A stretch of 64,000 nucleotides of DNA from Lachnospiraceae bacterium (GTDB lineage: Bacteria; Bacillota; Clostridia; Lachnospirales; Lachnospiraceae): contig FUZG01000006.1 in assembly GCA_900168235.1 (NCBI GenBank), positions 1 through 64,000 of the forward strand. Reading direction: 5' to 3'. Positions 51,731 to 63,592 of the stretch are shown in pieces (position 1 is the first letter of the stretch; the number at the start of each line of letters is the position of its first letter). Below the pieces are notes generated by a model, which saw nothing but the letters and a program-made list of their open reading frames with translations, did not search any database and was not told the origin of the DNA. Made by a program: the position numbers and the translations under genes.

Positions 51731-52360
51731 TTAAACAGCGAATTTTTTGCTGTAATACTCAATAAATTTATAAATGATCCAGGCGGTCATTCCCCAGATC
51801 AGGCCGTGGGGAGTTTTGTAAAAATAAAAGTTCCTTTTTATCTCACTGAACGGGTAGTCTCTGCCGCAGGGAATAAGGTCAAAAGGAAAGGAATCAGACG
51901 GGCAGAGTTTTAGTCTGGCGTGATGGATCTCGGGAGGGTTATTTATAAACCAGCTGACAGGCAGGCTGAATACCCGCGAGGTCTCGTCTTTATTAAAGGT
52001 TCCTTCATAATCGTGAAGCACTCCGACGTAAGAGCGCACAGGGCTGCCGCCGGGACCTGATATCTCAAACATTGGTGCAAGCAGTTCGATGGTGTCTTTA
52101 TATATCAAAAGCTCCTCGCTGGTCTCGCGGACCGCAGCATCTTCAAAGGTTTCGTTTTCCTCGACTGCACCGCCGGGCAGGCAGATCTCGCCGCCCTGAA
52201 CGATGTTGTCATTTCGTACTTCAAAAAGTATCTCGATATTTAACGGATCGTCAGAATCTTTATATAAAAGCGGGATAAGCACTGATGCTTTCCGTGTCTC
52301 ATTAAAATGCAGTGTTTCCAGCGTATGTTCTTTTAATTCGCCTAAAAAATCAGATTTCAT
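51731..52360 (-). CDS. Nudix hydrolase, CoA pyrophosphatase-like
   Basis: 209 residues. The Nudix box GGAVEENETFEDAAVRETSEEL fits G-x5-E-x7-R-E-x2-E-E. The upstream PLLYKDSDDPLNIEILFEVRN and the position of the box match the CoA pyrophosphatase (YeaB/NudL-like) group, which removes 3',5'-ADP from CoA or acyl-CoA. It probably controls CoA turnover. Next to a phosphopantetheine-using gene set (54990-58355), a link to recycling of CoA or faulty acyl groups is possible but not shown. Confidence 0.9.
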   Translation of the reverse strand: MKSDFLGELKEHTLETLHFNETRKASVLIPLLYKDSDDPLNIEILFEVRNDNIVQGGEICLPGGAVEENETFEDAAVRETSEELLIYKDTIELLAPMFEISGPGGSPVRSYVGVLHDYEGTFNKDETSRVFSLPVSWFINNPPEIHHARLKLCPSDSFPFDLIPCGRDYPFSEIKRNFYFYKTPHGLIWGMTAWIIYKFIEYYSKKFAV

Positions 52361-52385: not shown

Positions 52386-54761
52386 TCAGATCAGTCCCAG
52401 ATTACGCGCGGCAAGGACTGCGTCTGCTTTGCCATTTACGTTCAATTTTTTGTAGTTTGTCTTAGCGTGATAACGCACGGTCTCGAGCTTCATGTGCTCA
52501 CGGTCAGCAATCTGCTGGAGGGTAAGTCCTTCTGCCTGAAGCTTCAGAACAGTGATGGCGTGTTCTGAGAAATTAAGGAGACCTGTATTCTGCGGCTTTA
52601 AGTAGAGCGGGTAGTGGATAGCCATTTCCTCTGTTTCGAGATATACCCGCCTGAACCAGTCAGGGTCTATTCCCGCGGTATGAATTGCCTGCTCACGGAT
52701 GGCTTTTAACAGCGGGTAGACTGCTATTCCTTCACGGGAGATCAGACGGGTAAATTTATATGTGCATATTTTTGCCAGAGCTCCTATGAGGGTATTCTTA
52801 AAGCTCTTGCTTCCGCTCCTGTACTGCACGATGGCTCGGAGCAGACCAATCTCCATAGTGAGATAGTGGCGGTCGTATTTTTCTGCATAGTAGGACAGTT
52901 TATCAAGGAGTGAACGGGCTGAGGTCAGTTCGTTCGCGGTGAGGTAGGTGCGGATCTTTGTGAGATACCTGTACCGCTCCATTATGAAGAACTCGTGGGT
53001 TTCATCCGGCGCTTCCTTGAGCCAGCGGGTTATCGCCGCCTGATTTCCGTTATAAAGCGCTATACGGAGACGCAGGGCGCGGACATTTGGAATAAGAGCC
53101 GGTTCGCCCTGCTCACGGCACCGTGCTTCAAAGGATTCCGCGAGCTGTTCTGCGGTTTTCAGATCGCCGTCTGACAGGTGGATACGGCACATGATGCCTA
53201 TACCCGAGAAAACAGATTCCATGACACCGCCGTGCTCGGCTTCCAGTATTCCCTGATTTATAAGCGGCATTGTGAGACGGCTCGATTCGCCTTTTTCATA
53301 ATAGCTTTCTCCGAGTGAAATAGACGCGATGCCTTTTCCGTATCTTCCAAGTATTTCCTGAAGGAGATAACCGGAATTTTTGAAGATCTCTGTATCGCTT
53401 TTACTCCATTCACAGAAGTCCTTACCGGAGTTCATGACTGAAGGCATATTACTGGTGATAGAAAATTCGGGCAGCCGGATTCCCTGATCTACCATGTAGG
53501 ATGGGATCTTTCCGAGGATTCCGGCGGTGCTCGCAGAACCCCTGTGAGGGAGTGCTATATCGAGATAGAGGAGTCTTCCGATGGCTTCTCTTTTTCTGAT
53601 GCCGGAGGAGGTTTCTGCATAGCTTTGGAGCTGTCCGTACCAGTACTCACTGTTTTCTGTTTCCATGAGGAGGGAGTACATCATACTCATACCTGACATC
53701 ATTATGGGATCACCTATGATCTCGGTTTTTGGGAGTTTCAGATAGTATTTTCGGAGATCATAGTAGTAGCTGTTGCTGGGATTGCGCCTGGAATTTCGCA
53801 CGAGGAGTTCGTGGATACGGCCGATCTTTCCGCTTTTTTCATATAAACGGAGTGCGCGGGGGATATCATCATGAAGCTCATAATATAATCCGGCGTTATA
53901 GGCGTAGTCGTTCATGTTCAGAGTTCCGAAAAATTCGTCAGCTTTTTTACGGAGAAAATCAAGTACGATGGGACGGATACGGTAGTATTCGTCGTCGTGA
54001 TAGATAAAGTTGCCTGTTTCAAAGGCTTCGTTAATGATCTGTGAAACGTAGGGGTTTCCGGTTACAAATTCGGCAAGTTCTGCATTAAATTCATCAACTA
54101 CGCTCATCTGCATCATGAAGTCGAGGAGTGAGCGGGGCCAGTCGGGCATGATCACGTATTCGAGATAACGGTCATAGACTTTTCGTACAGTCTGATAATT
54201 TTTTTCTGTGATTCGTCCACCTTCGGGGAGCTGATGCATTATTCCCCGCAGGAAGTAGACATTGCCGTTTGTGACAGCGGTTATCTTATGGAGCATTTCT
54301 TCGGATGCAGTGATGTGGGAGAGGGCAAGGTACTGACGTGTCTTAGCTGTGTCAAACTGCAGAAGCTCTTCATCGATCATGCTGAAGGAACGGTCCATGT
54401 AGATACGTCCGAACCAGTTCAGGTCACGGCTTCTGGATATGAGGATGAGCCATACGTCTTTACGCATGGCGAGGTCGAGAACACGCTCCTGATTTTTGGG
54501 AGCGAACATTAACTGCAGATCGTCTATCACGACGCTCATGCGGCGTTTACCCTCGTTTGATGAGGGGATGACGGAGAGGTCGGGTTCTCCTGATCTGCAG
54601 GAAAAATACATATATTTTCTGGATGCAAAAAATTGCTTTATGAGTTCCGTTTTTCCGAAGCCTGCAAAACCGCTTATAAAAACCGGAGTTCCCATGGTGC
54701 CGGCTTTTTTCAGTATCTGAAATGCATCTTCCGGACAAATGTAATTTGATGATCTTGCCAT
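52386..54761 (-). CDS. Large ATP-binding LuxR-family regulator (MalT/LAL type)
   Basis: 791 residues. The N-terminal STAND ATPase has Walker A GFAGFGKTE and Walker B VVIDDLQLM. The centre is a helical array resembling MalT TPR-like repeats. The C-terminal LuxR helix-turn-helix (last 60 residues) has LKLQAEGLTLQQIADREHMKLETVRYHAKTNYKKLNVNGK. Such proteins activate transcription when they bind an inducer and ATP. It is divergent from the ACP/ligase/condensation operon and separated from it by 228 bases containing a palindrome, so it is the likely activator. ATG 54761 is chosen because GGAGGG is six bases upstream. Confidence 0.92.
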   Translation of the reverse strand: MARSSNYICPEDAFQILKKAGTMGTPVFISGFAGFGKTELIKQFFASRKYMYFSCRSGEPDLSVIPSSNEGKRRMSVVIDDLQLMFAPKNQERVLDLAMRKDVWLILISRSRDLNWFGRIYMDRSFSMIDEELLQFDTAKTRQYLALSHITASEEMLHKITAVTNGNVYFLRGIMHQLPEGGRITEKNYQTVRKVYDRYLEYVIMPDWPRSLLDFMMQMSVVDEFNAELAEFVTGNPYVSQIINEAFETGNFIYHDDEYYRIRPIVLDFLRKKADEFFGTLNMNDYAYNAGLYYELHDDIPRALRLYEKSGKIGRIHELLVRNSRRNPSNSYYYDLRKYYLKLPKTEIIGDPIMMSGMSMMYSLLMETENSEYWYGQLQSYAETSSGIRKREAIGRLLYLDIALPHRGSASTAGILGKIPSYMVDQGIRLPEFSITSNMPSVMNSGKDFCEWSKSDTEIFKNSGYLLQEILGRYGKGIASISLGESYYEKGESSRLTMPLINQGILEAEHGGVMESVFSGIGIMCRIHLSDGDLKTAEQLAESFEARCREQGEPALIPNVRALRLRIALYNGNQAAITRWLKEAPDETHEFFIMERYRYLTKIRTYLTANELTSARSLLDKLSYYAEKYDRHYLTMEIGLLRAIVQYRSGSKSFKNTLIGALAKICTYKFTRLISREGIAVYPLLKAIREQAIHTAGIDPDWFRRVYLETEEMAIHYPLYLKPQNTGLLNFSEHAITVLKLQAEGLTLQQIADREHMKLETVRYHAKTNYKKLNVNGKADAVLAARNLGLI

Positions 54762-54811
54762 ACTTAACCCTCCATATCCTTTGAACCCTGACATCATCTT
54801 AGCATGTTTCA

Positions 54812-54880
54812 GGGTAGTCTGAGATAGATATTATTCAAAAAAATATTTAAAAACATGATAAAACTACCCGAGCGGGTAGT
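54812..54880. promoter_or_regulatory. Candidate LuxR operator sites in the divergent region
   Basis: A perfect 18-bp palindrome ACTACCCGAGCGGGTAGT (54863-54880), and another copy of its half GGGTAGT at 54812-54818 inside TCAG-GGTAGT-CTGA. LAL/MalT proteins bind repeated short G-rich sites; the sites are between the regulator and the ACP gene. Confidence 0.6.
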
Positions 54881-54989
54881 GTGATGTGATAGGAGAGTAT
54901 GTTAGAACATATGGCAGAAAATAAAACGTAACTGTTTTAAGCACATCAAAAACACGTCAAAGCACATATCTTTAAGGGGAGGCAATACT

Positions 54990-55241
54990 ATGGCAGACAT
55001 AAAAATGTTTGATGAGATCCGTGATATTCTTTTGAACTACGCAGAGGTAGGAGCAGAGGAGATTAATACTGAGACAGATATCATCGAGGAACTGGGACTT
55101 GATTCCTTTAGCTTTATCTCGATGCTGGGGGAGGTAGAGGAGACCTTTGATATCTCTATCTCAGAGGAAGAGATGGAAGAAGCATTCCATCTGTTCACAC
55201 CTGCTGACATCATCAAGTTTGTAGCAAAGAAAGCTGCATGA
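54990..55241 (+). CDS. Stand-alone acyl/peptidyl carrier protein
   Basis: 83 residues, acidic, four-helix carrier fold. The phosphopantetheine Ser is in ELGLDSFSFISML (D-S motif). It is not the housekeeping AcpP: the helix 2 sequence and the operon with a ligase and condensation protein mark it as a dedicated carrier. A strong GGGGAGG stands before ATG 54990. Upstream there is a long leader with a 10-codon frame (54899-54931). Confidence 0.93.
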   Translation: MADIKMFDEIRDILLNYAEVGAEEINTETDIIEELGLDSFSFISMLGEVEETFDISISEEEMEEAFHLFTPADIIKFVAKKAA

Positions 55242-55282
55242 TCATTGGATTTTAAGTAATAAATATAATGGGGGAAATTTAA

Positions 55283-56881
55283 ATGACATTACAGGAAAAG
55301 ATCGATCGCAATATCACGGATTTTCGTTCGTTTTTAAGGGAACTGGCTGATAAATACGGCGATACACCTGCAGTACGGGAGTACCATGGAAAAGAGCTGG
55401 TGGACAGAAACTATCTGGAGCTTAAGAGAGATGCTGATGCAGTGAGCAGATTTTTGCTCGCTCAGGGTGCAGAGGAACGGATGCATATCGCAGCTGTCGG
55501 TGCCACAAGCTACCAGTATATCGCAGCTTATTTTGGAACTGTTGATACTGCAAATGTCATAGTTCCCACAGAGGCGCAGCTTTCAACAGAGACCCAGTGC
55601 GAACTTTTCCATATGGCAGATGTTACGGGTCTTTTCTTTGATAAGCACTTTGAGGATGCGATCCCGGAGATCCATGAGAAGTGTCCTGATATCAAATTAT
55701 TCATCTGTCTCACTGACGGAGTAGAGTCCCATGATCTGGGCGATATCCATATCCACAGCATCAATGAGATCGAAAAGGAATATGCAGAGGGTGAAGAGAT
55801 CATTGTTCCGCTTGAGCATGATACTTTCAGCACGATCCTTTTCACATCCGGTACGACGAGCGCCAGACCAAAGGCGGTAATGCTGTGTCACGGCGGTATC
55901 ATTGACAATATTTTTTCCGGAGAGCTGGAACAGCGTGATTCGACGAATAAAGTAAAGCTTATCGCGCTTCCTATCCACCACGCCCTGAGCTTTAACACAG
56001 ATATCTGCATGGGATTCAGAAACGGTGACACGGTATTCGTAAATGATTCCATGCTTCACATCGCAAAGAATTTCAAGGTTGCAAAGCCTTATACGGCAAT
56101 ACTTGTTCCCATGATCTTTGAAAACTTCTATCACAAGATCATGAAAGCCCATGAGGTTCATCCCGAGGTTGATCTGAAGGCTATGGCACGTGATGTTTTC
56201 GGCGGAGAAGTAGAAGTTTTCTACTGCGGAGGAGCACATTTAAGAGCAGAGATCGCGGATGCGTTTGCAGAGTGGGGCATGCCGGTATTTGAAGGCTACG
56301 GCATGACAGAATGCTCACCGAGAGTCGCAGCAAATATGCCTTGGAGATACCGCAGAGATTCTATCGGAAGGGTAGTTGATAACGCTCACGTCCGAATAAA
56401 GGACACAGAGCTTCAGGTAAAGAGCCCGTCTGTAATGCTTGGTTACTACAAAGATCCTGAGGCGACAAAGGCTGCATTTACTGAAGACGGGTGGCTCAAG
56501 AGCGGTGACATCGGATATATCGATGAAGACGGATTTATCTTCCTGCAGGGACGTATAAAGAATCTCATCATCCTTAGTAACGGTGAAAACGTGAGCCCTG
56601 AGGAGATCGAGACGAAGCTGTACGACTGCACATTTATAAAGGAGTGTCTGGTATATGAAGAAAACGGTCAGATCACAGCAGAAGTATTCCCGGACGCTGA
56701 ATACGCTGAAATGCATAAGGTTACGGATGTTGAAAAAGAGATATCAGCAGCAATAAAAGCTGTAAATAAATCAATGCCGACAACAAAGTCTGTCCGCAGC
56801 GTGAAGTTCAGATATGAGCCCTTTGAGAGGACAGCTACGAACAAGATCAAGAGAACCGGACGAGGCAAAAAGGCAGCATAA
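55283..56881 (+). CDS. AMP-forming acyl/aryl ligase (adenylation enzyme)
   Basis: 532 residues. P-loop ILFTSGTTSARPKAVML (A3), YGMTECSP (A5), SGDIGYIDEDGFIFLQGR (A7/A8) and the C-terminal Lys in NKIKRTGRGKK (A10) are all visible. It activates a carboxylic acid as an acyl-AMP and passes it to a CoA or, more likely here, to the carrier protein encoded 41 bases upstream. The acid is not predictable from the sequence; size and motifs fit medium/long-chain acyl or aryl ligases. Confidence 0.92.
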   Translation: MTLQEKIDRNITDFRSFLRELADKYGDTPAVREYHGKELVDRNYLELKRDADAVSRFLLAQGAEERMHIAAVGATSYQYIAAYFGTVDTANVIVPTEAQLSTETQCELFHMADVTGLFFDKHFEDAIPEIHEKCPDIKLFICLTDGVESHDLGDIHIHSINEIEKEYAEGEEIIVPLEHDTFSTILFTSGTTSARPKAVMLCHGGIIDNIFSGELEQRDSTNKVKLIALPIHHALSFNTDICMGFRNGDTVFVNDSMLHIAKNFKVAKPYTAILVPMIFENFYHKIMKAHEVHPEVDLKAMARDVFGGEVEVFYCGGAHLRAEIADAFAEWGMPVFEGYGMTECSPRVAANMPWRYRRDSIGRVVDNAHVRIKDTELQVKSPSVMLGYYKDPEATKAAFTEDGWLKSGDIGYIDEDGFIFLQGRIKNLIILSNGENVSPEEIETKLYDCTFIKECLVYEENGQITAEVFPDAEYAEMHKVTDVEKEISAAIKAVNKSMPTTKSVRSVKFRYEPFERTATNKIKRTGRGKKAA

Positions 56882-56909
56882 AACAAGGGTAGATGGGAAA
56901 GAGGAGTAT

Positions 56910-58355
56910 ATGACAGAACGGTTGATCAACGGTGTAATGGTAAAAACCTGGCCTTTAACTGATGTTCAGGGCGGTCTTTACAAGGTATTCGCGCACTACG
57001 CAAGTATTCAGGAAATGAATCTTGGTGTGGGATTTTATTTCAAGATGGACATGAACGAGGAACTCATGCGTCAGTCCATGAGAGAAGCAATCGGATATAT
57101 GGAGGCATTAAATGTCCGTTTCGGGCAGGATGAGAATGGAGAAATGTACCAGTACATCAATCCTGAGCCCTGGAATGAGGAGATGCCTTTATGGGATCTG
57201 TCTGATCTGTCAGAGAAGGAAGCAAAGGAATATCTGACGAAGGTTACGTCAGAGCCGATCGATTACCTGCACAAAAATATGACCATCGTGAGTCTCGTGA
57301 AGTTAAGAGACGGTTTCAGCGGAGTGTATATCAATTTTAATCATATGCTTGCTGACGGCTATTCCATAAATATGTTCATGACCTATCTCGCGGTGATCTA
57401 TTTCTCACATGCAGCGGGTAAGGAGATAGACCTTCCGAGGAAGAGCGACTACATAAAAATGATCGAAAAGGAATTGGAATACAAGGGTTCTGAGCGTGAA
57501 AAAGCAGATCATGAATTTTGGAACAGCACTCTTGAGGAAGGCGAGCCGATTTATACTCATCCGACAGCAGCACCGAATAATGCGAGGGTGAGACAGCTTA
57601 GAGAAAAGGGTGAGACCAGATATTTTGAAAATACCATCAGTCCCAAGGCTTCTATCGATTCTGAGATCATTGGCGGAGAGAGAGCAGAAAAACTGGTGGA
57701 TGCCATTGCTGAAAATAAGCTTTCTGAAAATGCCCTTGCAACACTGGCATTGAGAAGCACGCTTTCCCTCTTAAATCACAGGGAAACTGATATCGCGGCA
57801 CGTGTAATCGTAAACCGCAGAGGTACGATAAACGAGCGCTATTCAGGCGGAAACAGGATGACATTCCTCACATGGAGAAGCATCATCGATGATGATATGC
57901 CGGTACGTGATGCACTGAAGGAAATGATCGACAGCCAGAAAAAGATTTTCCGTCATGCGGACTATAACTCCATGAAGAGACTTGCTGAGCGCGGTCAGTA
58001 TTTCGGAAATCCGCCTCTCGCAACATACGAATCCGTGACATTTACATATCAGCCAAATACGGTCCAGATAGATCCGAGACTTCCTGAGATGAAGGCTGTG
58101 TGGTACTCAAACAGCAGTACATCAAATATCTGCTACTTAACTCTTGAGCACATGCTCGGAAAGAAAGATTACGTATTTATCTATGAGCGTCGAGTTGAGG
58201 AAATGAGTGAAGAGGAGATGCATTTCTTTACAGAACTCATGATGGAGTGCATGGAGAGCGCAGTAGAGCATCTTGACGGAACAATAGGCGAAGTCCTCGA
58301 TGAAGTTCAGGCACGCCATCCTGAACTGTGCGAAAGCGAGATGCGGGCAGTGTAA
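56910..58355 (+). CDS. Condensation-domain (NRPS C-domain-like) acyltransferase
   Basis: 481 residues. The condensation/WES-acyltransferase fold is supported by FNHMLADGYS near residue 168: the His-x3-Asp-Gly of HHxxxDG is intact, with Asn in place of the first His, as in several stand-alone transferases. The C-terminal half has the paired-lobe motifs of the family (RVIVNRRG). It would move the acyl group from the carrier to an amine, alcohol or thiol acceptor. The frame is open upstream, but ATG 56910 has AAAGAGGAG before it, 28 bases after the ligase. A MITE is inserted exactly at its stop codon. Confidence 0.86.
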   Translation: MTERLINGVMVKTWPLTDVQGGLYKVFAHYASIQEMNLGVGFYFKMDMNEELMRQSMREAIGYMEALNVRFGQDENGEMYQYINPEPWNEEMPLWDLSDLSEKEAKEYLTKVTSEPIDYLHKNMTIVSLVKLRDGFSGVYINFNHMLADGYSINMFMTYLAVIYFSHAAGKEIDLPRKSDYIKMIEKELEYKGSEREKADHEFWNSTLEEGEPIYTHPTAAPNNARVRQLREKGETRYFENTISPKASIDSEIIGGERAEKLVDAIAENKLSENALATLALRSTLSLLNHRETDIAARVIVNRRGTINERYSGGNRMTFLTWRSIIDDDMPVRDALKEMIDSQKKIFRHADYNSMKRLAERGQYFGNPPLATYESVTFTYQPNTVQIDPRLPEMKAVWYSNSSTSNICYLTLEHMLGKKDYVFIYERRVEEMSEEEMHFFTELMMECMESAVEHLDGTIGEVLDEVQARHPELCESEMRAV

Positions 58356-58356
58356 G

Positions 58357-58502
58357 GTTACTGTTCACTCGCTTACAGCTCGCTCCAGTAACGGATTTTG
58401 CCAATTAAATCGCCTTTGGCGATGGGCAAAATCCAATGGCTCGCCTTCGTTATTGGGGCATAACTGCGCAGCGTAGTGCGCAGTTTGCCTCTGAACAGTA
58501 AC
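58357..58502 (-). mobile_element. 146-bp MITE-like element, family B, with 8-bp target duplication
   Basis: Perfect 11-bp terminal inverted repeats GTTACTGTTCA (58357-58367) and TGAACAGTAAC (58492-58502). The flanks carry the perfect direct repeat AGTGTAAG (58349-58356 and 58503-58510), which includes the TAA stop of the upstream gene. The interior folds: GATTTTGCC/GGCAAAATC (58394-58402/58425-58433), ATCGCC/GGCGAT inside it, and AACTGCGCA/TGCGCAGTT (58462-58470/58477-58485). No protein is coded. A diverged copy is at 1-88. It is a non-autonomous insertion whose transposase is not in the window. Confidence 0.88.
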
Positions 58503-58564
58503 AGTGTAAGTTCTAAAAATATTTCAGAAATTTTAATATGTTTATTTCGGATAATGCGTTAAAA

Positions 58565-59038: not shown

Positions 59039-59162
59039 GCACGTGTCTGAAAAAGTTTCAATTATTTTCCCTTAAATAAAAGTTTTAAGCCTTAATCTGC
59101 CGATAACAATAAGGGTATGTGTTTTTAGGAGAAACATTTTACATGGATTGTTGGGGTGGCAG

Positions 59163-61085
59163 ATGAAAAATTCAGTTACTAGGCAATTTATATATACTGT
59201 GAGCCTGATATTTGTGCTTCAGGTCGTGATGCTCGCCGGAGTTTTTAATACATTTTACAAAAAATCAAAAGCGGATATAAAAGCTCTAGGTGTCAGTAAT
59301 ATGAAAAGTCAGGCGGCAATGGTAGAAAACTATCTGAATAAGGGCGGGGATGTGCTTTGGTTTGCGGCAGAATCCGTTGACTATATGCTGAAGAGCGGAT
59401 CGGACAGTGAGCAGATCTTTCAGTATCTGAGAGGCGCCACTTATCAGATGCAGGAACAGTTTGATGCAAATTTCACCGGAATTTACGGGTGTCTTAACGG
59501 AGAGTATGTTGACGGATCAGGATGGGTTCCGCCTGAGGACTATGATCCGACAGAAAGAAGCTGGTATAAAGAAGCAAAGGAAGCCGGAGGAAATATGATA
59601 CTGTCGAAGCCCTATGTGGATGCCCAGACAGGAAGTATCATCATTTCCTACAGCCAGCTCTTATCTGATGGAAAAAGTGTACTCTCTCTCGATATCGTGC
59701 TGAATGAAGTCCAGAACATCACGGAACATATGACCATGGAAGGTGTTGGCTATGGTTTTATAGTTGATGAGAGCGGTCTGGTAATTTCCCATGCAGACAA
59801 AAATGAGATCGGTAAAGACTATTCCGAGGGCGGAGAGTGGATGGATCTCTTAGCCCGGGATCAGTCTGACGACGGATATGGATTTGAAACAAAGATCGAT
59901 GGCAAGCTGTGCACTGTTTTTACGAAAAGGATCGTAAATAAGTGGCACGTTGTGATCGTTTCTCAAAATACGCTGATGTACAGAGATCTCCATCTGCAAA
60001 TTTTTGCCAGCGTTTTCTCGACGATCCTCGTATATCTCATAATCGTTATCTTCTGCATGTATTCTGTTCGCAGTATTTCAGGAGCGGAGCGGAGAAGACA
60101 GGAGAGTCTGGAACAGATAAAACAGCTGAACACGAATATCATCCGTTCCCTTGCGTCTACCATTGATGCAAAGGACCGTTATACAAGCGGTCATTCCCAG
60201 AGAGTGGCGAACTATGCGGTCATGATAGCAAAGCGCATGGGGAAATCCGAGGCAGACCAGAGAGTTATCTATTATGCAGGATTGCTTCATGACGTGGGAA
60301 AGATACGTATTCCCGAGGCGGTCATCAATAAGCCGGGACGCCTCACAGAGGAAGAGATGGATGCGATCCACGTTCATTCCGTGAGCGGTTATGACATCCT
60401 TATCGATATTTATGATGACGAACGGATATGCCAGTGCGCAAAGTATCATCATGAACGGTATGACGGAACAGGTTATCCAAACGGTCTTGAAGGAGAAAAC
60501 ATACCTGAGATCGCGCGGATTGTGGCTGTAGCAGATTCCTATGATGCAATGGCGAGCGACAGAGGTTACAGGAAAGCCCTGCCTCAAGATGTAGTAAGGA
60601 AAGAGATCGTCGAAGGCAAGGGTACCCAGTTTGATCCGGAGATCGCGGACATCATGCTGGATATCATTGATGAAGACCCTGAGTACAGGCTTCGTCAGAA
60701 AGAGAACTGGATACGGAACGTGCTCGTGATCGACGATGAAGAGATCATCATAAGGGATGTAAAGCACATTCTGGAAAAAATGGAAGACACACATGTTGTA
60801 GGAGCACAAAATGAGAAAGAGGCGGTCTCTGTCCTTAAGGAAATGGAGATCGATATCATATTGCTGGATCTGAAGATGCCTGATACGGATGGATTTGAGC
60901 TATTCGAAAAAATCCGTGAAAAATGGTCTGTCCCTGTGATCTTGATGACAGGTGACAAGAGTCGTAAGACCATACAGCGCATAAGTGATCTGCGCATAGA
61001 CGATTACATTACAAAACCTCTTAATGAAGCAATAACCCGTGAGGCAGTTCACGGTCTTCTTCACAGGATAGATACGCGGTTTTGA
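59163..61085 (+). CDS. Membrane HD-GYP phosphodiesterase with sensor and receiver domain
   Basis: 640 residues. A membrane helix (about 8-30), an extracellular dCache-like sensor (about 35-275), a second helix (about 278-300), then an HD-GYP domain: HSQRVANYA, LLHDVGKIRIP (HD), HHERYDGTGYP (the GYP-type loop, complete) and VADSYDAMASDRGYR. The last 120 residues are a receiver domain with IDDEEIII and the phospho-acceptor Asp in ILLDLKMPDTDGF, then Lys in YITKPL. HD-GYP enzymes degrade c-di-GMP. It sits directly before a hybrid kinase gene, its likely phosphodonor. ATG 59163 preferred over TTG 59148 because GGGGTGG lies between. Confidence 0.92.
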   Translation: MKNSVTRQFIYTVSLIFVLQVVMLAGVFNTFYKKSKADIKALGVSNMKSQAAMVENYLNKGGDVLWFAAESVDYMLKSGSDSEQIFQYLRGATYQMQEQFDANFTGIYGCLNGEYVDGSGWVPPEDYDPTERSWYKEAKEAGGNMILSKPYVDAQTGSIIISYSQLLSDGKSVLSLDIVLNEVQNITEHMTMEGVGYGFIVDESGLVISHADKNEIGKDYSEGGEWMDLLARDQSDDGYGFETKIDGKLCTVFTKRIVNKWHVVIVSQNTLMYRDLHLQIFASVFSTILVYLIIVIFCMYSVRSISGAERRRQESLEQIKQLNTNIIRSLASTIDAKDRYTSGHSQRVANYAVMIAKRMGKSEADQRVIYYAGLLHDVGKIRIPEAVINKPGRLTEEEMDAIHVHSVSGYDILIDIYDDERICQCAKYHHERYDGTGYPNGLEGENIPEIARIVAVADSYDAMASDRGYRKALPQDVVRKEIVEGKGTQFDPEIADIMLDIIDEDPEYRLRQKENWIRNVLVIDDEEIIIRDVKHILEKMEDTHVVGAQNEKEAVSVLKEMEIDIILLDLKMPDTDGFELFEKIREKWSVPVILMTGDKSRKTIQRISDLRIDDYITKPLNEAITREAVHGLLHRIDTRF

Positions 61086-61117
61086 CATCTCTGTGAGGTT
61101 GTGAGAGAGGTGCACAT

Positions 61118-63592
61118 ATGAAAGAGATCAAGATCGACAGAAAATATCTGGAGATAAATATAAAGAAGATAAAGCTCATATATTCACTGCTGATCTTGTA
61201 TGACATCTATCTCTGGCTCGATAATTTTCAGCGCGGGATCTATTCCACAGGAATCGTGTCCCTGATAGGCGGATCGATCCCCGCGATAACGCTTGTTGTA
61301 TTACTTGGTTTCCGTCCTGAGGGAAGGACTCAGGAGCGCATAGCATATGCGTCCATCGTGGTATCAAGCTTCGTTTACTGGTTTATTTTTGGATGGTTCA
61401 TGTTCACCGGAGGCACAGCCGGTACCAGTATTTTTCTGGTATTTATGGCTGCGCCTGTGGCTTATTATTTCTTTAATCTTTTCTTTGGTTCAATTTTTTG
61501 CGGTGTGCTCTTTCTGGAGGTTGCGCTCTACATGTGGACACCGCTTTCTGACTATGGTTATCAGTTCCCTGAAATGTATGAGCAGCGTCTCCCCATGTTC
61601 CTTTTTATAGAAACAGTTCTTTGCGCTCTTGCCCAGTATGAAGCAGTAAAAGCAGGCATCATGCAGGATAGGGCGATAGAGGAAGCGAAGTTTGCAAATT
61701 CGGCAAAAACAGATTTCCTTGCAAATACAAGTCATGAGATACGAACGCCTATGAACTCGATTCTCGGCTTCTGCGAGCTCATCCTTCGTGAAGACAGCAT
61801 CAGCGCGAGAGTGCGGGACTACTGTCTTAATATACAGAGCGCCGGAGATAATCTCTTACATATCATTAATGACATTCTGGATGTGTCAAAGATAGAAGCG
61901 GGAAAGATCGAGATCGTAGACGAAGAATTTAAGCTGGAACGCCTTGTGAAGGACGTTGTAAATGTATCAATGATGAGAAAAAAGGAAAGAGGACTGGAAC
62001 TTATCGTAGATATGGACGGCAATATACCTGCGAGACTTTACGGAGATATGGGCAGGATACGCCAGATAATGATAAATCTCGTGACCAACGCCATAAAATA
62101 TACGTCTAACGGCGGAATCTACATGCGTATCGGTGTAAAGAGAAAGGATACGCCGATCCTCGTTGTCAGGGTTGAGGATACAGGCGTAGGCATAAAACCG
62201 GAGGATCTTGAGCGGATATTTCAGAGCTTCGAGCAGGTGGATAAGACAAGGACAAGACCAATAGAAGGAACAGGCCTGGGACTCACTATCTCAAAAAGGC
62301 TTGCAGATCTCATGGGTGGTGTCATTACCGTTGAAAGTGAGTATGGATGCGGCGCAGTTTTTACCATGTGGATACCTGTAAAGATCAGGGATCTGAGCCC
62401 CATCATAAAGGATCACAATTCGCTGGAAGAGGAGTACGGTATCTGCACGGATATTAATAACATACATCCGCGTCTCAGGAATAAATATAATGCACACATT
62501 GAGGATATGTGCTCTTTTTTGCACATGAGGATGCTTCCTGTCCCGACAAAGGAAAAAGACCGGAGTTCCAGATATGAAGGGCTGAAAGGATGCTTTGTCG
62601 ATGCTGCGATATATGAAGAATATAAAGAAAGATTTGACCGGATATCTGAAAAAACGGAGATCATCCTGATAGGTGATGATTTTAGCCAGAGAGCAGAGTC
62701 AAAGGATCTGAAAATGATCTATAAACCGCTTTACCTGTTGTCGTTTATGGATTTTGTGGGAAAAGATGCGGAAGACTCAGATACAACCTTGAGCGGAGCA
62801 TATATGAGGTTCACTGCACCTACCGCAAAAGTGCTGTTAGTCGATGATAATCCTATTAACCTGAGAGTCGAGCGGGGCCTAATGGAAATCTATGATATGG
62901 ATATCACTACGGCGTCCAGCGGTATGGAAGCTCTTCATATAGCGGACAAAGTAGAGTTTGACATTATCTTTATGGATCACATGATGCCTGAGATGGACGG
63001 TATAGAGACTATGAAGCGTATTCATGGAAGGGATATAAAGCGGAATAAAGGGACGCCTGTTATCGCACTGACAGCTAATGCGGTAAAGGGCATAAAAGAG
63101 ATGTTCCTGGAAAACGGTTTCAACGGATTTATTTCTAAGCCCATAGATCTGAATGAACTGGACAGGATACTAAGGAGCTACATCCCGAGGTACAAGATAA
63201 TCGAGAATACGGAAGTGAAAAAACGTAAGACCGAAAAACTTCCTGTTGAAATAGAAAGTATGCTGAATGAGTCAGAATTATTCGACTACGATGAAGCAAT
63301 GAGGAACAGGATAGATGAAGAAAACCTGCTGTTATATATGAAGGGTTATGAGAAGAATTTCAGGGAGCTTCAGGAGTTTTTCGATGCAAAGGACTGGGAA
63401 AACTACACCTTACAGGTCCATTCACTGAAAAGCTCGTCCAGGATGATAGGAGCCGTGAAACTCAGCGAACTCGCGGAAAAAGCGGAGAAATTGTCAAAAA
63501 TACCTGACGAAACGGGTGTTTTTGAAATACAGGACGAGATATTAAAGCTATATACAGATGTATTTAATACGATAAAAAAATATGTATTTTGA
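61118..63592 (+). CDS. Hybrid sensor histidine kinase (TM sensor, HisKA, HATPase, REC, Hpt)
   Basis: 824 residues. The first 175 residues form five or six membrane helices with no large extracellular domain. HisKA has the phospho-acceptor in FLANTSHEIRTPMNSILG (about 202-219), then HATPase N box LVTNAIKYT and G boxes VEDTGVGI and GTGLGLTIS. An inactive-looking spacer follows, then REC with VLLVDDNPINL and phospho-acceptor Asp in IIFMDHMMPEMDG, and an Hpt domain with HSLKSSSRMIGA near the end. All phosphorelay parts are in one protein. It follows the HD-GYP gene by 32 bases, so the Hpt may pass phosphate to the receiver of that protein. Confidence 0.94.
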   Translation: MKEIKIDRKYLEINIKKIKLIYSLLILYDIYLWLDNFQRGIYSTGIVSLIGGSIPAITLVVLLGFRPEGRTQERIAYASIVVSSFVYWFIFGWFMFTGGTAGTSIFLVFMAAPVAYYFFNLFFGSIFCGVLFLEVALYMWTPLSDYGYQFPEMYEQRLPMFLFIETVLCALAQYEAVKAGIMQDRAIEEAKFANSAKTDFLANTSHEIRTPMNSILGFCELILREDSISARVRDYCLNIQSAGDNLLHIINDILDVSKIEAGKIEIVDEEFKLERLVKDVVNVSMMRKKERGLELIVDMDGNIPARLYGDMGRIRQIMINLVTNAIKYTSNGGIYMRIGVKRKDTPILVVRVEDTGVGIKPEDLERIFQSFEQVDKTRTRPIEGTGLGLTISKRLADLMGGVITVESEYGCGAVFTMWIPVKIRDLSPIIKDHNSLEEEYGICTDINNIHPRLRNKYNAHIEDMCSFLHMRMLPVPTKEKDRSSRYEGLKGCFVDAAIYEEYKERFDRISEKTEIILIGDDFSQRAESKDLKMIYKPLYLLSFMDFVGKDAEDSDTTLSGAYMRFTAPTAKVLLVDDNPINLRVERGLMEIYDMDITTASSGMEALHIADKVEFDIIFMDHMMPEMDGIETMKRIHGRDIKRNKGTPVIALTANAVKGIKEMFLENGFNGFISKPIDLNELDRILRSYIPRYKIIENTEVKKRKTEKLPVEIESMLNESELFDYDEAMRNRIDEENLLLYMKGYEKNFRELQEFFDAKDWENYTLQVHSLKSSSRMIGAVKLSELAEKAEKLSKIPDETGVFEIQDEILKLYTDVFNTIKKYVF

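Follow-up and report, generated by a model that had tools for sequence, protein, structure and literature searches.

The window analysed here is a 64,000-nt stretch of contig FUZG01000006.1 from a Lachnospiraceae bacterium. At positions 52,386–58,355 it carries a large regulator gene and, divergently oriented, three genes for a carrier protein, a ligase and a condensation (C) enzyme:

52386–54797, minus strand: LAL/MalT-type regulator, 803 aa, with Walker A GFAGFGKT, a MalT-like TPR region and a C-terminal LuxR HTH
54810–54817, plus strand: half-site CAGGGTAG, found in 4/4 species at equal spacing, 52–53 nt upstream of the palindrome
54863–54880, no strand assigned: palindrome ACTACCCGAGCGGGTAGT, the proposed LAL operator, a conserved block in a diverged spacer
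54990–55241, plus strand: acyl carrier protein (ACP), 83 aa, PF00550 at 2e-9, phosphopantetheine Ser39 (codon 55104–55106)
55283–56881, plus strand: stand-alone adenylating acyl-ACP ligase, 532 aa, PF00501 at 2e-46, P-loop TSGTTSARPKAVM, Arg347 (codon 56321–56323)
56910–58355, plus strand: stand-alone condensation enzyme, 481 aa, PF00668 at 3e-28, motif NHMLADG with His145 (57342–57344) and Asp149 (57354–57356)

The positions of the four genes were confirmed by open reading frames (ORFs) and Pfam matches, with one correction. The mechanical ORF call placed the start of the C gene at ATG 56814, overlapping the ligase; this start was dropped in favour of 56910, which is most likely the true one because AGAGGAG lies upstream of it and close relatives begin at the corresponding codon. 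The three plus-strand genes are separated by gaps of 41 nt (ACP to ligase) and 28 nt (ligase to C enzyme), each has a good ribosome-binding site, and a search of the plus strand between them for terminator-like sites found none. The ligase, ACP and condensation functions reside on separate proteins, and gene content bears out the initial annotation's description of a three-gene operon without NRPS modules, thioesterase or ketosynthase. The genome encodes one C-domain protein, no second ligase of the window type at 1e-10, a single LAL of the window family and two PPTase-type matches.

The same four genes, identical in order and orientation, are present in three congeners (loci L099–L101: Lachnospiraceae bacteria MC2017 and NK4A144 and an uncultured MAG). 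Identity to the window proteins is 78% for LAL, 78%–80% for ACP, 84%–85% for the ligase and 87%–88% for the C enzyme; all frames are intact in the four species, and dN/dS lies between 0.04 and 0.09 for the four genes, an approximate range since dS is saturated. As judged from these comparisons, the ORFs do not lie together by chance. Loss of the carrier serine or of the condensation His and Asp in relatives, or a lack of co-transcription, had been named in advance as grounds for abandoning the pathway; instead, the serine is found in 25/25 relatives, His145 and Asp149 are invariant in 40/40 sequences, and the co-directional gene order is retained. The flanks of the block differ among the congeners. 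A Nudix gene (51731–52360, minus strand), suggested earlier as a possible partner, is absent from the same place in 3/3 congeners, where LAL directly adjoins the amylase-type gene from which Nudix separates it in the window. The Nudix gene is, on this comparison, unrelated to the operon, and its absence there indicates either a local insertion in the window or a loss in the congeners. Because the block is kept in the congeners and Nudix is missing there, the unit is regarded as LAL plus the three genes.

A search for this gene set in relatives and in known clusters was expected to return fatty-acyl amide clusters, and it did: the window operon is, by sequence, a divergent variant of the FAA/CTA fatty-acid-amide operon family of gut Clostridia. 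The small pathway is not itself an oddity, as first thought, since the family has been described. By the accounts in PMC13142362, PMC13060934 and other citing papers, Chang et al. (2021) were the first to describe the FAA family. OaaC, OaaACP and OaaA have been reconstituted: OaaA charges OaaACP with a fatty acid, which OaaC then transfers to a small amine (PMC13142362, a 2026 preprint). The CTA operon of Blautia wexlerae and other Lachnospiraceae makes oleoyl-, palmitoyl- and linoleoyl-ethanolamine and acyl dopamines; in that survey, which used a 70% identity cut-off, every isolate had T flanked by C and A (PMC13060934).

The best solved relative of the window C enzyme is PDB 12kh, matched over residues 12–464 with an E value of 3.9e-45. 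This entry is taken to be OaaC of Coprococcus eutactus, because it is named 'Condensation Domain Protein' and its DHRLMDS compares with the (D/H)HxxxDS reported in PMC13142362. The next-best structure match is an NRPS C domain at 1e-7, with VibH at 1e-2; the C enzyme was therefore not assigned as an NRPS starter C domain or VibH-type enzyme, as NRPS C domains match at the 1e-7 level at best, against 4e-45 for OaaC. Two maximum-likelihood trees place the window C clade with the FAA-type C enzymes, separated from NRPS C domains by a 100/100 branch. Within the FAA clade the window forms a deep, long branch of uncertain exact position; a basal placement beside one long branch in the first tree was discarded when the addition of class-level sequences moved the window inside the clade. 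In the ligase tree, the window ligase takes the corresponding position. Similarity to characterised members is limited, with about 23%–30% identity for the C enzyme, and the ligase shows 31%–39% identity to family members and 38%–39% to CTA ligases. Like the OaaC system, the window has three free-standing proteins, full-length homology of the C enzyme and a conserved xHxxxD, and it also has a segment aligning with OaaC 214–224, an insertion in OaaC (PMC13142362). It differs in having only about a quarter identity, NHxxxDG rather than the OaaC-type (D/H)HxxxD(S/A), and a different gene order, regulator and residue 347 (Arg). With the Blautia CTA operon it shares the three functions in one operon and the bacterial family, but it lies far below the 70% cut-off of that survey and has the order T-A-C. 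Published surveys would miss the window branch because of such strict cut-offs.

Among 299 genomes of the same bacterial family, 45 have a C-enzyme match at 1e-10, most at 24%–30% identity; this total includes a few NRPS C domains embedded in large ORFs. In a set of 391 genomes of the class, further free-standing members turned up outside this bacterial family. One match each was obtained for 16 of the 48 genomes in the genus: four (the window genome included) carry the window type and the remainder the canonical type, at 25%–32% identity. A plasmid collection held only NRPS-type C domains (20%–27%), with the FAA-type operon absent. The order T-A-C is found in the window and three congeners, as against C-T-A in 50/57 comparison loci, and those congeners are the only comparison loci with T-A-C and the only ones with a LAL. 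T-A-C is treated as a variant, since gene order is a habit of the FAA/CTA family and not part of its chemistry. Relative to the known family, what is unusual is the T-A-C order, the LAL regulator and the changed ligase pocket.

Some comparison loci have further distinctive features. Locus L051 (8757–12717) has the order C-A-T with galactose genes upstream, and a PPTase gene lies beside the operon in L051 and in L157 (6048–6641), which fits the need for holo-ACP. In congener G341, a 1223-aa A-T-C protein (AMP-binding, PP-binding, Condensation) precedes a canonical C-T-A operon at L112 (7808–12925, minus strand); the ligase portion of this protein carries Lys347 and clusters with the window ligase type. 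Two acyl-amide systems may, from their gene content, be stacked at this locus.

The regulator has the features of the LAL class (approximately 800–950 aa): a P-loop NTPase N terminus, TPR and a C-terminal LuxR HTH, with Pfam matches to TPR_MalT (PF17874, 3e-14) and GerE (PF00196, 1e-7). It shares a STAND-like P-loop N terminus, the MalT TPR region and the GerE HTH with MalT/LAL regulators. It is not MalT itself, scoring 69 bits against a cut-off of 537 for the MalT equivalog model. Its homologues elsewhere in the bacterial family (29%–45% identity) sit in unrelated gene contexts, and a standing link between this LAL family and acyl-amide genes was rejected on account of these varied contexts. 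One homologue adjoins dlt-like genes, with weak ACP and ligase matches only.

In the four-species alignment the spacer between LAL and ACP has diverged, yet ACTACCCGAGNGGGTAGT and the half-site are kept. The palindrome at 54863–54880 is the sole copy in the genome at up to two mismatches. A related pattern, ACTAYCC-N4-GGRTAGT (up to two mismatches), was found upstream of the gene's own start in 9/20 LAL homologues, with 0.07 expected from mononucleotide shuffles; these 20 are the discovery set, and the pattern was refined after they had been viewed. After the pattern was fixed, it was found in 3/15 further homologues, against 0.05 expected and a maximum of 1 in 500 shuffles. Its conservation between the divergent genes and its recurrence upstream of LAL homologues indicate that the palindrome is probably the LAL operator. 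To our knowledge, no binding site has been described for this LAL family, and the candidate offers a handle on the inducers of such operons.

The ligase pocket is the most promising lead. The P-loop is longer by one residue in all four species. At position 347, directly after GYGMTECSP, the 45 canonical ligases carry V (42), T (2) or L (1), whereas the window and the relatives at L157–L160 have Arg, and those at L156 and L112 have Lys. In the ligase tree, a branch with support 92/63 separates the R/K347 ligases from the rest. The position aligns with the valine of 'GPVL' in 4-coumarate-CoA ligase, which presumably lines the acid-binding pocket, and we take the site to correspond to a specificity position of NRPS adenylation domains. 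The hydrophobic fatty-acyl pocket of FAA/CTA ligases is thus not reproduced in the window, as Arg347 lies in the predicted acyl pocket. A positive charge here would not be expected if the substrate were a plain fatty acid, and would suit an acid that bears an additional anionic or polar group; a carboxylate is the partner that we infer for Arg347. An acyl substrate other than a plain fatty acid is therefore possible, and given that all 45 canonical ligases have V, T or L at this position, we speak of acyl amides rather than fatty-acid amides. The relatives at L156–L160, from other Clostridia, share with the window the positive pocket residue and the grouping in the ligase tree, and for L156, L157 and L158 the C-enzyme tree shows that grouping as well (there L145, L134 and L142); unlike the window, L156–L160 have the C-T-A order and no LAL. 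Tentatively, and with more doubt than confidence, the window and these relatives could form a distinct CTA subfamily that loads, for example, dicarboxylic or hydroxylated acids and makes undescribed acyl amides, under LAL control in the genus.

A mechanism may be proposed from the gene content and order, the family membership and the conservation of catalytic residues and operator, all of which are read from the DNA itself. By analogy with the reconstituted relatives, the ligase would adenylate a carboxylic acid and load it on holo-ACP, the PPTase for which would be encoded at another site in the genome. The C enzyme would then pass the acyl group from ACP to a freely diffusing small amine. 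A thioesterase would not be needed, as the N-acyl amine would be released in the transfer step. LAL, as an ATP-dependent MalT-type switch, would bind the ACTACCC-N4-GGGTAGT palindrome and, as we infer, turn the operon on in response to a ligand. Homology and the conserved residues are in keeping with the core of the earlier proposal, that an acid is loaded on the carrier and transferred to a small acceptor by the C enzyme; nothing in the evidence pointed to the ester or lipid head-group product that had also been suggested. The whole reading, that of a divergent FAA/CTA member acting from ligase through ACP to amine under LAL control at the palindrome, is given a probability of about 0.7.

The physiological role may be a different matter. 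Upstream of many canonical loci lie a divergent TetR-type regulator gene, an SCP2-like small protein and an alpha/beta hydrolase, names that were Pfam-checked at locus L044 only and are elsewhere inferred from gene size and orientation. Such partners fit fatty-acid sensing, and in Blautia, where free fatty acids are toxic, amines restore the growth of CTA+ strains (PMC13060934). The operon could accordingly serve chiefly for detoxification, with free carboxylic or fatty acids being capped by whichever amine is abundant, and the product itself would be no signal. However, the window lineage is without those partner genes and its regulator belongs to another class, and we consider this role a credible possibility that falls somewhat short of even odds. 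It is compatible with the amine-transfer mechanism favoured here, and the confidences in the two do not add to one.

The C enzyme lacks the first His of the C motif, and its residue after Asp149 is Gly, a minority state in FAA C enzymes. Of 32 residues that mark the canonical FAA C enzymes and are rare in NRPS C domains it retains 14, and many FAA-type residues are changed, for example R63Y, R68N, D159Y and P321T. The C-domain superfamily performs both amide and ester formation, with SgcC5 and PapA5-type enzymes carrying out O-acylation. The changed residues would be consistent with a similar O-acylation of an alcohol or of a lipid or sugar head group, giving an ester or modified lipid. Acceptor-synthesis, glycosyl or lipid genes are linked to the operon in none of the four species, though, and amides are what the closest characterised relatives produce (PMC13142362, PMC13060934), so that O-acylation appears unlikely. 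In the OaaC-type motif, the residue after Asp is S in 42%, A in 36% and G in 17% of cases (PMC13142362). Structure prediction of the C enzyme with four sequences gave a mean pLDDT of 38 and was unusable. That the operon is a decayed or fragmentary NRPS remnant, as the low family identity and the altered C enzyme might suggest, is highly improbable and largely refuted by conservation: frames are intact, dN/dS is low, catalytic residues and operator are kept, and relatives share the free-standing three-protein design.

On the comparisons made here, the FAA/CTA family is much wider than published surveys cover, reaching other families of Clostridia, and includes a subclade whose ligase pocket suggests a different acyl group. 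Products of FAA/CTA operons act on host receptors, including GPR119 and GPR132 (PMC13142362, PMC13060934).

Further downstream, after an MntR-like gene, the sequence at 59148–63592 reads as a cache-like sensor carrying HD-GYP and receiver domains, together with a hybrid histidine kinase; congeners carry other genes in the place of this pair. An Rfam scan of 48–62 kb gave no match. Directly after the operon, at 58357–58503, lies an element of approximately 147 bp with about 40 genomic copies, many 99% identical, inverted ends GTTACTGTTC/GAACAGTAAC and a predicted fold much more stable than that of shuffles (z −5.8). It looks like a MITE/REP-type element, and similar sequence is found near the operon end in congeners.
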